DNA of 64,000 nucleotides, from assembly GCF_023585825.1 (NCBI RefSeq), contig NZ_CP097751.1, positions 1 to 64,000 on the forward strand. Reading direction: 5' to 3'. The position numbers and the translations under genes are program-made. This DNA is from Candidatus Blochmanniella camponoti (lineage in GTDB: Bacteria; Pseudomonadota; Gammaproteobacteria; Enterobacterales; Enterobacteriaceae). How positions within the stretch are numbered: position 1 is the first letter of the stretch; every line of letters begins with the position of its first letter. The notes under the pieces were generated by a model. That model was not told where the DNA came from. It was given only the letters and a program-made list of their open reading frames with translations, and did no database searches. Positions 15,697-23,939 of this stretch are shown here, piece after piece.

Positions 15697-16903
15697 AATC
15701 TCACACTAAAATCTTGAATTAATAATAAAAAATGTTCTAATTGAAAATCATTTTTAAAAAAAAACACACAAATTTTTATATTTCATATAAAAATCTTGAA
15801 TTCATTTTATTTGCCATGCAATTAGGAATATTTACAATTTCTAAAATTACCATAATCATGATGATATCTGTTTAAAAAAATTTTTAATCAAAATATATAA
15901 ATTCAATAACACAATGTATACCAATTACAGTAAAAAAAATTATCATAAATTCAATATAAATAAATCAAACATTTAATGTTTTACAATTAAGTTTTACTGA
16001 GCTTAGTACCAATAATAAATAAGAATATGATCCTAAAACAACTTACAATATAACATTAACTCAAAAATCATAAAAAATGATATTTATTGATTTTCTAAAC
16101 TTTGTTAGATATCTATCATTTTTTTTGTTATCATTTATAAATTTTATTATTATAATATAGATTTTGAATTTTTGTTCATGTTCATCAATATTATTGCATT
16201 AATGATAATTAATGACAGATTATATCTATATCATGTATATGATATAACTTATTACGATTAGTGTGTTGACTTTTATAAAAAACCATATCAATAATATTGA
16301 AAATCTTACATCATTGAATGTATCAAGAATTATAATGATAAAATATGATTATTTAAACAAAAAATACAATGCAATAAAGTATACAAAATACTATTAAATG
16401 GTGTCTTATGTCTTTATGTAGTAAATAAAAAATAAATATATATATTAGTTACCTATAAATATTCGTTTTTTTAAAGAATTCTTGGGCATTTTATTGCAAA
16501 TAGACTTAAATTATCTTATATTTCATCAGATTTTTTAATTACATATTAATGAAAAATTTTAATACAGAATTAACTTGATTTTAAGCGTTAAATGTGTTGA
16601 ATAATTGATTAGAAAATTTTTTTTATTTTAAAAAACCATAATCTTTATAAACTCAAGATAGAAAGAATTATCAATTTTTACAAATAGACTGATTAAACCC
16701 AAATATAACAGAAACTACTAATCATAAGTTCCAGCATTTGGTAGAACATAAAAAAGAATCAACTTCTAAACATAAACCTCGTATACTTCTTATAAAATGT
16801 ATATGTATTAATTAAACAATTAATATTATTATTAATAATTGAAAAAACATCAGTTAAATTAAACATAGTTTTAGTGTTTTTATATTATTCACATATAATA
16901 ATA
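15697..16903. other. 1.2-kb gene-poor region downstream of kdsA
   Basis: No open frame of useful length and no RNA gene recognised. The sequence is very AT-rich with short homopolymer runs. It ends at a probable yebC relic on the minus strand and the thrS relic on the plus strand, so it is most likely eroded coding DNA. Confidence 0.5.
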
Positions 16904-17159
16904 TTATAATAGAATGAAATAAGTGTTACTATGTAAGGAAAATATTTCATAAGCATCCAATAAATTTAAAATCTTTACAAGTACTCTATTATTTTCTTCA
17001 ACGTAAATTATGTTGTCCCTATAATGTGATTTAGGGATAATAATTGAATATATAAATGATATATTTAATGATTCTACATGGTGTAGTATAGCATCCAATG
17101 AAAAATTGAAAATAGACTTAAAACGTTCAATACTATTATAACAAATGATTGTATGAAAT
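16904..17159 (-). pseudogene. Probable relic of yebC (3' part)
   Basis: An 85-codon open stretch without a credible start. Its translation resembles the C-terminal domain of YebC-type regulators: CYNSIERF matches the VYTSPEDF region, SIIIPKS the SMIPST region, EENNRVLVKILNLLDA the ETAPKLMRLIDML region, and HSN the YHN near the end. The match needs small insertions and deletions, and no YebC N-terminus is present because the frame closes 24 bp before the thrS relic. It could also be a chance open frame. Confidence 0.38.
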
Positions 17160-17183
17160 ATTTATAGTATGAATGAATCATGA

Positions 17184-17862
17184 ATGTTTGCTGTAACTTT
17201 ACGAAACGAAAAATCAATATAATTATATTGTATCTCTTCTATAACTTTATCGAGATACGCATTTCAATTTACGTAAAAAAATTATTTATTTAAGCAGACA
17301 ATGGTGAAGTTTATTGATATTGTTGATTTAATACATCATAATTTAAACATTGGGTTTATTATACAGACTATGATGTAAGATAACATGTGATTACTTTCTT
17401 GCGCGTGTTCATTAGAACACGCAGTGAAAAAATTAATCTATTATAATGCAAACCAAATAGTATTCAGTCCAACAACAAACATAGGATTTTATTATGACAT
17501 AGATCTCTATTATTACCTTCTCAAGATAACCTAGTAATTATAGGGAACACAGCTAATACTTGCTAATAAAAATACAAATATTATAACCAACGTTATCTAC
17601 AAGAAAACCAAATAAACTTTATCCATCATTTTCTGAAAATATATAAAATATCAGTTATAAATGAAAAATATTTACCTTATTGAATATGCCAGGTTATATT
17701 ATCATGAAAAATATATAAATATATATATCATGGACTACATACTCGATATCAATTTTTATCAGAATTTTAAATTATCTAAAATTTCTGAATTTTACTAAAT
17801 AGAAAACAGTAAAATAAAAAATTACACGTATTCGTGGTCTTTATAGAACTAAAAAAATAATA
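17184..17862 (+). pseudogene. thrS: Decayed 5' third of thrS (TGS and editing domains)
   Basis: One frame from the ATG at 17184 aligns with E. coli ThrRS residues 1 to ~190 at almost identical spacing but has stops (codons 13, 31, 65, 69, 117, 118 and more). Readable blocks: VTLRNEKS; KFIDIVDLIHHN (E. coli ELVDACDLIEND) at codons 42-53; LSCACSLEHAVKKL (HSCAHLLGHAIKQL) at 71-84; NIGFYYDIDL (DNGFYYDVDL) at 99-108; LYYHEKYINI (LYFHEEYVDM) at 171-180; and NFKLSKI. The four editing-site ligands are lost: His73 to Leu, His77 to Cys, Cys182 to Tyr, His186 to Tyr. A net one-base frameshift near 17797-17820 separates it from the open catalytic part. From 17184 to the thrS stop is 1924 bp, the length of a full thrS gene. 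Confidence 0.88.
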
Positions 17863-19107
17863 ATGTATAACGCACAAAATATGTCACAAATACTTAAAAA
17901 AAATGATCATCGCAACCTTGCGAAACAACTACACTTATACCATACACAAAAAGATGCTCCCGGTATGGTATTTTGGCATCAAAATGGATGGATTTTATTA
18001 CAAGAATTAAAAAAAATTATACGAGCGCAACTTAAAGTATATAAATATCAAGAAGTGAAAAGTCCTGCCATGATTAATCATACATTATGGAAAAAAACAG
18101 GCCACTGGGATAATTATCATGAACATATATTTACTACTTCTTCAGAAAGTCATGAATATTGTATTAAACCGATGAATTGTCCGGGACATATTCAAATTTT
18201 TAATCAAGGTATTAAGTCTTATAAAGATTTGCCTTATCGTATAGCTGAATTTGGAAATTGTCATAGAAACGAACCATCTGGGTCTTTACATGGACTCATG
18301 AGAACACGCGAATTTACCCAAGATGATGGTCACATTTTTTGTACAAAAACACAAATATTCGACGAATTAAACCACTGTATTAAAATGATGTATGATGTAT
18401 ATAATACATTCGGTTTTAAAACGATTTTAGTAAAATTATCTACTCGCCCTACAAAGCGAATTGGTACAGATTTGACATGGGATATGGCAGAACAACATTT
18501 ATCTACTGTACTTCAACACAATAATATTTCATTTCAATATCAACCTAATGATGGTGCATTTTATGGTCCTAAAATAGAATTTGCTTTACTTGATTCTTTA
18601 GATAGAACTTGGCAATGTGGTACAATACAATTAGATTTTTCTTTGCCAAATCTATTAAACGCACGTTATATCGATCATCATAATAGTCGCGTAGTCCCCG
18701 TAATGATTCATAGAGCAATCCTTGGTTCTATGGAACGATTTATTGGTTTAATAACAGAAGAATATGCAGGATTTTTCCCAACATGGTTAGCCCCAACACA
18801 GGTTGTGCTCATGAATGTTAGTGATCAACAATCTGAATATATTTCTGTTATAGAAAAAAAACTAATAAATAAAAAAATAAGAACAAAAGTAGACTTGAGA
18901 AATGAGAAAATAGGATTTAAAATTCGTTATTACACCTTACAACGTATACCTTATATGTTAATTTGCGGAAATAAAGAAATGAATCATAATACAGTAGCTA
19001 TACGTACATATCGAGGTCAAACATTAAAAAACTGCAACATTGACATATTTATAAAAAAATTATTACGTGAAATTAACAGTTACAGTCTTCATCAAATGGA
19101 GGAATGA
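17863..19107 (+). CDS. thrS: Threonyl-tRNA synthetase, catalytic and anticodon domains only
   Basis: Charges tRNA-Thr. The 414-aa open frame corresponds to E. coli ThrRS from about residue 227 to the end (642). The class II core is complete: motif 2 region [11 protein letters not shown], and the three zinc ligands of the aminoacylation site (Cys in KPMNCPGH, His in QDDGHIFC, His in [14 protein letters not shown]). The anticodon-binding domain follows ([23 protein letters not shown]). The TGS and editing domains are missing from the frame and lie decayed just upstream. No good ribosome-binding site precedes the ATG at 17863 and the next Met is six codons on, so the start is uncertain. The stop codon overlaps the infC ribosome-binding region. 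Confidence 0.92.
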
Positions 19108-21545: not shown

Positions 21546-23939
21546 ATGAAATTTAGTGAAATGTGGATACGTGAATGGACAAATCCGCCTATTAGTAGCA
21601 TTGAATTAGCTGATCAATTAACCATGGCTGGATTTAAAGTTAATGAATTAAAACCTGTTACTAATATTTTCTATGGAGTAGTTATTGGTGAAATTGTAGA
21701 ATGCAAAATGCATCCTGATTTACATAATGTGTGGATAACAAAAGTCAATAACGGGGATAATAAATTATTAAATATTGTTTGTGATGCTTCTAATTGTCGT
21801 AAAAATATTCGAGTAGTTGTTGCCAAAATAGGAGCAATACTACCAAATGGACGTAAAATTAAATTAAAAACGATACGAGGTGAACAATCAGAAGGAATAT
21901 TATGTACTTTTTCAACACTAGGAATCATTAGTCACACAGTAGGTATAATAGAATTACCTATAAATGCGCCTATTGGAGAAAACTTTTATAACTATTTACG
22001 TCTTAATGATAATATTATTGAAATCAACATTACTCCTAATAGAGGAGATTGTCTTAGCATAATCGGAATTTCTAGAGAAATAGCAGCTATAAATCATTTA
22101 AAATTAAAAAAAATAAAAATAGAATCAATTATTCCAACAATTAATGATACTGTCCCTATTTCTATTGAAGTTCCGGATGCATGCCCGCAATATTTGGGAA
22201 GAATTTTAAAAAACATTCATATTACTTCCCCCACGCCCTTATGGATAGCAGAGAAATTACGTCGCTGCGGAATCAGTTCAGTTAACATAGTTATAGACAT
22301 TGTTAACTATGTATTACTAGAACTTGGGCATCCAATTCATGTTTTTGATTATAAAAAAATTGACGGTAACATAATACGTATACGTTTTTCCGAAATCGGA
22401 GAAATTCTGACATTATCCAATAATAATAGTTTAAAACTATTACCAAATACAATAGTCATCGCTGATTGTAAAAAACCATTATCAATTGCTGGAACAATCA
22501 CTCCAAATAAATATTCTATTTGTTCTGAAACTCGTCATATAATATTACAATCTGCTTTTTTTACTCCGTCTGTTATCGCGAGTCAATCCACATTATATCA
22601 TATGCATGATCTTCATTCCTTTCGTTATGCACGAGGAGTAGACCCAAGTATATCTAAATTAGCTTTAGATCGTGTCACCTCATTATTAATAAAAAGCTGC
22701 GGTGGTTATCCTGGTCCGATAATAAACATGACTAACAAAAGTATGTTACCAAAACCTACCAATATTATATTAAATCGAACTAAATTAAACAAAATTATTG
22801 GATTTCGTATCTTAGATTCAGAAATCACACATATTTTAAAACGGCTTGGTTTTCAAATAGAATTTTCAGACAACATCTGGAAAATACTCCCACCAACTTG
22901 GCGTTTTGATATCTCTATAGAAGAAAATTTAATAGCAGAAATAATACGTATTCATGGATATAACAATATCCCTCGTGTTTCTCTTTGCACAAACTTAATA
23001 ACAAATCGGCCCCATGCATCAACCATACCGTTATCAAGAATAAAAAATTTATTGATAGATCGTGGTTATCAAGAAATAATGACATATAGTTTCGTAAGCT
23101 ATGATATTCAAAAATTATTACACCCACAAAAAATTCCATTAATTTTAAAAAATCCAATTACGTTAGACATGTCTACTATGAGGCTGTCTTTATGGTCTGG
23201 ATTAATTAAAACAGTAATATATAATCAAAATAGACAACAAAAACAAATGAAATTATTTGAAAGCGGTATATGTTTTATTCCACAAAAAAATGCTGAAAAT
23301 CAAATAAATCAAGATTTGATGATAGCGGGTATACGATCCGGACTCAGATTTAATGAACACTGGGATCTGACAAAAGTATGTCCAGTAGATTTTTACGATA
23401 TAAAAGGAGATGTAGAAGCTTTGTTAAACATAACTAATAAGTTACATTGTATTAGATTTAAAAAATATACACATCCCGCATTACATTCCGGTCAAAGCGC
23501 AGCAATTTATTTGAAAAACATATGCATTGGATATATTGGAATGATTCATCCTACTATACAAATGAAATTAAATTTACGTTCACAGGTACTAGTCTTCGAA
23601 TTGTCGTGGAATATGATTTCTCAATTTATATTATCTAAAATTACTACCATTTCTAAATTTCCTAAAAATTTCCGTGATATTTCTATAATAGTACCAAATA
23701 AAGTGGCCTCAGAATCTGTTATTATTGAATGTAAAAAAATTGCTAACGAAGATCAATTAATTGACATCAAATTATCTGATGTTTACAGAGGTCAAAACAT
23801 TGCGAAAGGTTTTAAAAGTTTTACTATTAGATTATTTTTGCAAAGTAAAACCCATACTTTAAAAGAAGAAGAAATTTCTGATATTGTTAACAAATGTTCG
23901 ATGATTTTGAAAAAACGTTTCCATGGCACCTTGAGATGA
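21546..23939 (+). CDS. pheT: Phenylalanyl-tRNA synthetase beta subunit
   Basis: 797 aa (E. coli 795), all domains present: N-terminal tRNA-binding EMAP-like domain ([29 protein letters not shown]), B3/B4 editing domain around residues 200-400, B5 domain, the catalytic-like core ([12 protein letters not shown]), and the C-terminal ferredoxin-fold anticodon-binding domain ([24 protein letters not shown]). In contrast to thrS, its editing domain is still in frame; whether its editing pocket is intact needs alignment. It starts 15 bp after pheS. Confidence 0.97.

Follow-up and report, generated by a model that had tools for sequence, protein, structure and literature searches.

The window that we analysed is the first 64,000 nucleotides (bases 1–64000) of a single-contig genome of 790,946 bases (G000) from Blochmannia, an obligate symbiont of carpenter ants and their kin. 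The gene order around thrS, which encodes threonyl-tRNA synthetase (ThrRS), is prfA, prmC, kdsA, thrS, infC, rpmI, rplT, pheS, pheT. The genes from thrS to pheT were identified by comparison with E. coli, and the three upstream of thrS are ones that we take to be prfA, prmC, and kdsA.

The sole long thrS frame in the list of open reading frames spans 17863–19107 and has 414 codons. Pfam finds just two domains in its product, tRNA-synt_2b and HGTP_anticodon, which confirms the claim of an earlier note on this DNA that the frame covers only the catalytic and anticodon-binding domains. In the intact ThrRS of the congener G007, Pfam finds tRNA_SAD too, plus a match to TGS that is below the threshold. 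The other features of the locus are listed in Table 1.

Table 1. Features at and near the thrS locus (positions in the window)
Feature	Coordinates	Strand	Remarks
Non-coding, AT-rich stretch that separates kdsA from the thrS remnant	15697..17183		about 1.5 kb; four-fold-level divergence
Open reading frame	16904..17098	-	64 amino acids
Former thrS leader, where intact congeners have the hairpin and ribosome-binding-site-like motif	17033..17166	+	among the most diverged stretches, in part because little of G004 aligns at 17033–17075
Decayed TGS (N1) and editing (N2) domains	17184..17855 (end approximate)	+	stops, frame-breaking indels, four editing residues replaced
Alternative upstream start of the live frame (ATG 17863)	17863..17880	+	414 codons from here
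Live thrS, limited to the class II catalytic domain and the anticodon-binding domain	17881..19107	+	408 codons, counted from ATG 17881 (conserved)
pheT (PheRS beta)	21546..23939		putative editing pocket altered

The live gene probably starts at ATG 17881. This codon (MSQ...) is present in all five of the sister species that have the truncation (G000, G002, G004, G006, and G008). ATG 17863 is in frame in just two of them (G000 and G008); G006 has it in another frame, and G002 and G004 lack it, which is why we prefer the downstream start. Neither codon is preceded by an evident ribosome-binding-site-like motif, but such a motif is found for just 13 of the 42 ATG frames of at least 150 codons in the window, so its absence from thrS is not unusual.

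The product is identical to E. coli ThrRS at 262 of 399 positions of the core. The zinc ligands C334, H385, and H511 (E. coli numbering) are retained, along with R363, Y462, and Q484, and these six catalytic-site residues are identical in all 20 of the ThrRS that we aligned. The class II core, the zinc ligands, and the anticodon-binding domain point to the catalytic function of a bacterial ThrRS; the rest of the full bacterial architecture (TGS, tRNA_SAD, and H73/H77/C182/H186) is absent from this gene. The core aligns with the 401-residue ThrRS chain of PDB entry 1EVK (query 15–414 on chain 2–401), which is a structure from E. coli according to PMC4041444. That entry and others of the same sequence are an engineered core with the same domain boundary, whereas the Blochmannia enzyme is natural and its charging activity is putative. 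Overall, the gene product is very probably a threonyl-tRNA synthetase that is reduced to its aminoacylating core.

We searched the genome for a second, complete thrS, which would have undercut the earlier note, and did not find one. One candidate (G000:C1:727308-727796) turned out to be ProRS: it adjoins a match to tRNA_edit, in a frame of 589 residues.

A dead N-terminal half upstream of the live gene

The earlier note placed the old start at 17184, and we found an ATG there that is homologous to the start of the intact genes. From 17184 onwards, the DNA aligns over its full length with the N-terminal half of thrS from intact congeners. In a single frame with many stops, the remnant matches residues 16–224 of ThrRS from the congener G010 (tblastn, E = 8e-24) and residues 43–205 of E. 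coli ThrRS (E = 7e-8), as the note had described for E. coli. It was also right that all four editing residues (H73, H77, C182, and H186) are replaced. In contrast, the "single net frameshift" that was said to separate the dead and live parts describes only the net result. A nucleotide alignment to the intact thrS of G007 shows 17 indels, of which 14 break the frame and largely compensate for each other (the exact number varies with the alignment), so the separation did not arise in one event.

Several lesions are common to the five sister species at identical columns: codon 22 is a stop, three indels break the frame, and C182 is replaced by tyrosine (C182Y; the aligned codon is TAT in all five). 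At the other editing positions, the codon that aligns with H77 is TAT in four sister species and TGT in G000, the codon at H73 is CTT or TTT in the five, and H186 is kept, as CAT, only in G004. Because the stop and the three indels are at identical columns, the inactivation of the N-terminal half probably predates the split of the five species. One of the three indels (a 1-base gap) is in an alignment column where G001, which is poorly aligned there, has a gap as well. Since intact species sit between G001 and the five on the tree (see below), we attribute this to coincidence or to the poor alignment, unless the history of loss is more complex.

Errors of sequencing or assembly could mimic a broken gene. 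We found nothing that favors this. The stop, the three frame-breaking indels, and C182Y recur at identical columns in five separate genomes, which have diverged from each other to graded extents, so we consider the chance of error to be negligible.

The remnant is also diverging as expected for DNA without function. Among the five sister species, pairwise identity is 70–92% for the remnant, 71–94% for four-fold sites of the live core, and 70.5–90.5% for the upstream intergenic DNA, and the three are at similar levels pair by pair. Codon positions 1 and 2 of the core are 95–98.5% identical. In the intact species, the N-domain is constrained: across the first 205 codons, identity is 82–95% at positions 1 and 2 and 58–83% at four-fold sites. 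Since the remnant changes about as fast as four-fold sites and the core remains under constraint, we conclude that the upstream N-half is dead DNA and has not been recoded. The comparison of sister species, the shared lesions, and the neutral drift thus bear out the central claim of the earlier note, that this ThrRS lost its TGS and proofreading domains and that the dead half is still readable.

Could the upstream half still be used? Editing might be restored by transcriptional slippage, by frameshifting, or by a separately translated N-terminal fragment. According to PMC4389277 (which counts 3 pseudogenes in B. pennsylvanicus), certain frameshifted genes of Blochmannia may be rescued when transcription slips on homopolymers, and A/T runs are frequent in the region. 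However, such a rescue would have to contend with the stops, the 14 frame-breaking indels, the replacement of all four editing residues, and divergence at about the four-fold rate. Also, no plus-strand open reading frame of at least 60 amino acids lies between 15697 and 17862 (from kdsA to the live gene). This makes continued use of the upstream half highly improbable.

As another way of detecting the remnant, we compared the chained score of the interval from kdsA to the core with the scores of 200 dinucleotide shuffles per genome. None of the 200 shuffles reached the real score in G000, G006, G002, or G004. For G008, 17 of 200 did, so its score does not beat the shuffles, yet its DNA alignment to the sister species is clear. 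Beyond the five, G001 has a weak remnant at the same place (E = 9e-6; 1 of 200 shuffles). We did not detect a remnant in G003, G011, G013, or G009, where 168, 56, 159, and 34 of the 200 shuffles, respectively, reached the real score.

Farther upstream, the non-coding DNA between kdsA and the remnant (Table 1) is possibly an older gene that has been erased. The congeners with intact thrS likewise have 1.0–1.3 kb between kdsA and thrS.

The loss of the N-terminal half might also affect regulation. ThrRS of E. coli needs its N-terminal region to repress its own mRNA (PMC7373986), and this part is absent from the G000 enzyme. All four intact congeners have, immediately before the start, a predicted hairpin and then a ribosome-binding-site-like motif. 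The loops of these hairpins have no evident threonine anticodon, and the hairpin of G005 differs in sequence. In the outgroups G017 and G021, the hairpin loop contains CGT or GGT, which we read as what a mimic of the threonine anticodon should have. In the clade of five truncated species, this leader is one of the least conserved stretches (Table 1). Because the N-terminal domain is missing, and because the hairpin and the motif would precede a dead start, leader autoregulation of the E. coli type is probably gone in G000.

Distribution of full and truncated ThrRS

We examined ThrRS in 14 genomes of Blochmannia, including G000. Four of these (G005, G007, G010, and G012) encode a full ThrRS of 642–644 residues in which the four editing residues are all present. 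The remaining ten have truncated ThrRS, in open frames of 402–423 residues. Similarly, PF07973 (tRNA_SAD) is found twice in each of the four genomes with full ThrRS, while each of the other ten has a single match, in an AlaRS-sized frame. The alignment to thrS of related symbionts that the earlier note proposed includes intact orthologues from 4 of 14 genomes, with the remnant legible upstream of the truncated gene in G000.

To place these states on a tree, we used 13 neighbouring proteins and left out thrS, because a tree of the ThrRS core lacked the resolution needed for placing G001 and G005. (Three of the genomes, G008, G017, and G021, have fewer than half of the columns filled.) Of the 13 inner branches, 11 were starred. 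The clade of five truncated species is sister to the full-length G005 and then to the full-length G012, G007, and G010. Outside these are the truncated G001, G003 with G011, and G009 and G013 in either order. A single clade of all ten truncated genomes is rejected (p-AU = 2.6e-10), as is a clade of eight that excludes G009 and G013 (p-AU = 7.7e-5).

If loss is one-way, then these results suggest that the N-terminal half was lost 4–5 separate times in the genus: five times on the tree as drawn, or four if G009 and G013 are sisters. For G003, G011, G013, and G009, the evidence for separate losses is the tree, since these genomes have no detectable remnant.

Alternatively, the domain could have been lost once, early on, and then regained in the full-length species, perhaps by transfer. 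If loss need not be one-way, the minimum is three state changes, which would require regain, and three is fewer than 4–5 losses. The lack of a detectable remnant in the four genomes just mentioned, and the 1-base gap that aligns between G001 and the five species, would also fit with regain. However, the N-domain of the full-length species is in place and in one frame, and it does not resemble E. coli or the outgroups G017 and G021 more (52–59%) than the core does (62–70%). Also, G001 lies outside the full-length clades and carries a weak remnant in the same place. We consider regain to be rather unlikely and we prefer repeated loss.

Across the wider family, ThrRS matched in all 246 genomes, three of which are of Blochmannia; among the matches listed, all run from E. 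coli residue 1 to 641–642. We also considered a set of reduced genomes: 72 genomes of the family, from 45 genera outside Blochmannia, that are at most 1.2 Mb. In 17 of these 72, the N-terminal half is absent from the ThrRS match. For 16 of the 17, the match begins at E. coli residue 233–243, and for the other (G145), it begins at residue 172 and runs through stops. These 17 genomes span 11 genera, three of which also have representatives with a longer ThrRS (G248, G251, and G226). Among N-half-bearing loci, of which we fetched 30 from the 72 genomes, all four editing residues are kept in 11. Given that 17 of 72 genomes lack the N-half and that just 11 of 30 loci have all of the editing residues, decay of the residues and removal of the domain at the same linker are, by these counts, both common in the family's reduced genomes.

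We searched for remnants in five of the 17 (G018, G020, G145, G149, and G114). For G018 and G020, 10 and 3 of 200 shuffles, respectively, reached the real score. G145 was considered as a further fossil, but no remnant was found there. We left G233 out of the 17 because a frameshift explains why its match starts at residue 172 and its N-half is readable, so this is not a fossil either. The thrS of G233 is split around residues 161–172 with both parts readable, which could be a fresh break or an assembly error. Another relative, G019, has a full-length ThrRS with K, Y, F, and Q at the four editing positions, or decay without removal of the domain.

Proposed fate of any misformed Ser-tRNA-Thr

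The earlier note offered two possibilities: either the symbiont tolerates the misincorporation of serine at threonine codons, or another factor clears the errors. It suggested looking for a free-standing editing protein, and we did not recognise one in any of the 14 genomes. Specifically, in the ten truncated species, tRNA_SAD (PF07973) occurs only in AlaRS-sized frames. Neither DTD (PF02580) nor the archaeal ThrRS editing domain (PF08915) was found in any of the 14, and tRNA_edit (PF04073) was found in 13 of 14, solely inside frames of 576–611 residues, which is the size of ProRS. (Unlike the other 13, G011 has no detectable editing domain of the ProRS type.)

A protein that we do not recognise, or one derived from the host, could still maintain fidelity by editing in trans. 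Free-standing editors of the ThrRS-ed and ProXp-ST types exist elsewhere (PMC7373986), and import from the host would be invisible in the symbiont's genome. But given that the 14 genomes lack DTD, ThrRS-ED, and free-standing tRNA_SAD, and have tRNA_edit only in ProRS-sized frames, we think that editing in trans is quite improbable.

Or, the core itself might have become more selective, by sharper rejection of serine or by pre-transfer editing, so that the domain is redundant. Mitochondria have ThrRS without editing, and one of the solved relatives of the core is a mitochondrial enzyme (3UGQ, E = 6e-80). We take 3UGQ to be MST1 from yeast, which presumably lacks the N-terminal editing domain; it is distant in sequence but likewise keeps the core. 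MST1 reportedly has pre-transfer editing or a selective core. On the other hand, the catalytic residues that we checked are the same in truncated and full enzymes, and no column of the core separates the two (12 truncated and 7 full rows, which gives little power). Because no column separates them, we see no sign of compensation in the core. This is weak evidence, as independent losses could have involved different changes. Still, we consider a more selective core to be unlikely.

Because no known editor of Ser-tRNA-Thr was found, tolerance seems the better reading of the earlier note's two possibilities. We propose the following account. An ancestor of the five sister symbionts lost the TGS and editing domains through stops and frameshifts, as the comparison of their genomes shows. 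Translation would now begin at a methionine codon in the linker ahead of the catalytic domain, given the conservation of that codon. The core would still activate threonine via its zinc site and charge tRNA-Thr, since the catalytic residues are conserved, purifying selection continues, and the core matches the crystallised core from E. coli. Any misformed Ser-tRNA-Thr would be hydrolysed by no enzyme that we recognise. The cell might tolerate this because the replacement of threonine by serine is mild, and because its own synthesis supplies threonine but apparently not serine, which should keep the ratio of serine to threonine low. And, if loss is one-way, it would have recurred 4–5 times in the genus under relaxed selection. 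We put the probability of this explanation as a whole (a core-only ThrRS, a dead N-half, tolerated errors, and repeated loss) at roughly 0.88.

The genome content is consistent with a low ratio of serine to threonine. Threonine synthase (ThrC) is present in all 14 genomes. We did not find a convincing SerA in any of the 14; there are weak matches (27–33% identity) in 13 of 14, in frames of 377–388 residues, and none in G013. These weak matches are probably PdxB. This would fit with the SerA query finding nothing in G013, which we take to be B. obliquus, as a pdxB pseudogene has been reported for B. obliquus (PMC4389277). Given the presence of threonine synthase and the lack of a convincing SerA, a low ratio is likely and may make editing dispensable. 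A low ratio cannot by itself explain why four species keep editing, because it is expected for all 14.

Results from E. coli bear on how costly the errors might be. The C182A substitution in ThrRS causes little growth defect, while mutating the editing cysteine of AlaRS inhibits growth at elevated temperature (both reported in PMC10057733). Oxidants disable editing by E. coli ThrRS, and serine then inhibits a protease-deficient strain, which is rescued by threonine; wild-type E. coli appeared to tolerate serine with the same oxidants (PMC4041444).

Known systems and the editing sites of other synthetases

The loss of editing in host-restricted bacteria has been described before (Melnikov et al. 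2018 PNAS, as discussed in PMC11020763, PMC7373986, and PMC10057733). As in those systems, part of the editing machinery of a synthetase has eroded in a reduced, host-bound genome while aminoacylation is kept, and judging from the sequences, ThrRS from G000 belongs with the editing-deficient ThrRS of host-restricted bacteria: its editing domain is absent, its genome is reduced, and its core appears to be under selection. What differs from the systems in those accounts is that the whole N-terminal half is lost yet legible, that full and truncated states are found within one genus, and that there were apparently several losses.

In Mycoplasma, the editing domains of ThrRS, LeuRS, and PheRS are degenerate or missing (Li et al. 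2011; PMC4014445, PMC7373986, PMC10057733). These too are natural editing-deficient synthetases, with more than one synthetase affected. But as described in these sources, mistranslation in Mycoplasma was measured, at leucine and phenylalanine codons, whereas our case is known from sequence and concerns a mutualist of ants whose relatives keep the domain. The split ThrRS-cat/ThrRS-ed of some archaea also include a short ThrRS without an editing domain, but none of the 14 genomes has an archaeal-type editing domain or DTD, so Blochmannia does not share that arrangement.

Among the papers listed in our literature searches, none describes this case in Blochmannia. The kind of phenomenon, loss of synthetase editing in host-bound bacteria, is already known; the evidence within this genus is unusually clear. 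A trend that was known between groups is caught here inside one genus, with intact, fossilised, and erased states, repeated loss, and a relative order of lesions. Two questions become testable: whether symbionts lose editing because threonine-to-serine errors do no harm in a cell that makes threonine but not serine, and whether the proteomes of sister species with and without editing differ in accuracy.

We also checked the editing sites of other synthetases, and G000 gives a pattern in which the sites for alanine, isoleucine, and valine are kept while others are lost. The tRNA_SAD domain of AlaRS scores above the cut-off in all 14 genomes. Its editing residues are kept in G000, and across the genus the exact strings NHSAT and CGGTH are found in 12 and 13 of 14 genomes, respectively. 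The editing residues of IleRS and ValRS that we checked are also kept in G000.

For LeuRS and PheRS beta, we looked at the presumed editing residues, on which a literature search found no useful paper. In LeuRS from G000, T248 and D345 are kept, but T247 is methionine and T252 is isoleucine, so that YTTRPDTFMG in E. coli becomes YMTRLDIFMG (in G000:C1:759000-763000). Across the genus, all 14 genomes have D345, and in 11 of 14, including all four with full ThrRS, T252 is replaced by isoleucine. In PheRS beta from G000, G318, E334, T354, and A356 are replaced by T, Q, D, and H, and H265 is kept, which suggests that the pocket for editing tyrosine is degenerate. Most of the readable congeners have similar changes, and E334 is kept in just 1 of 13 readable rows from the genus.

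Tentatively, and at somewhat less than even odds, G000 combines three compromised proofreading steps: deletion in ThrRS, a degenerate pocket in PheRS beta, and an altered threonine-rich motif in LeuRS, with the sites of AlaRS, IleRS, and ValRS kept. As stated in one review (PMC7373986), the loss of three editing activities is not known from any Mycoplasma. If the sites in LeuRS and PheRS are inactive, then there would be three losses in one genome, which would exceed the limit of two synthetases in Mycoplasma. A genus with both full and truncated ThrRS would then let one ask, as in a natural experiment, what level of mistranslation a mutualist can bear.

Finally, ProRS from G000 has the substitutions H369Y and T257A, and it keeps K279 and D350.
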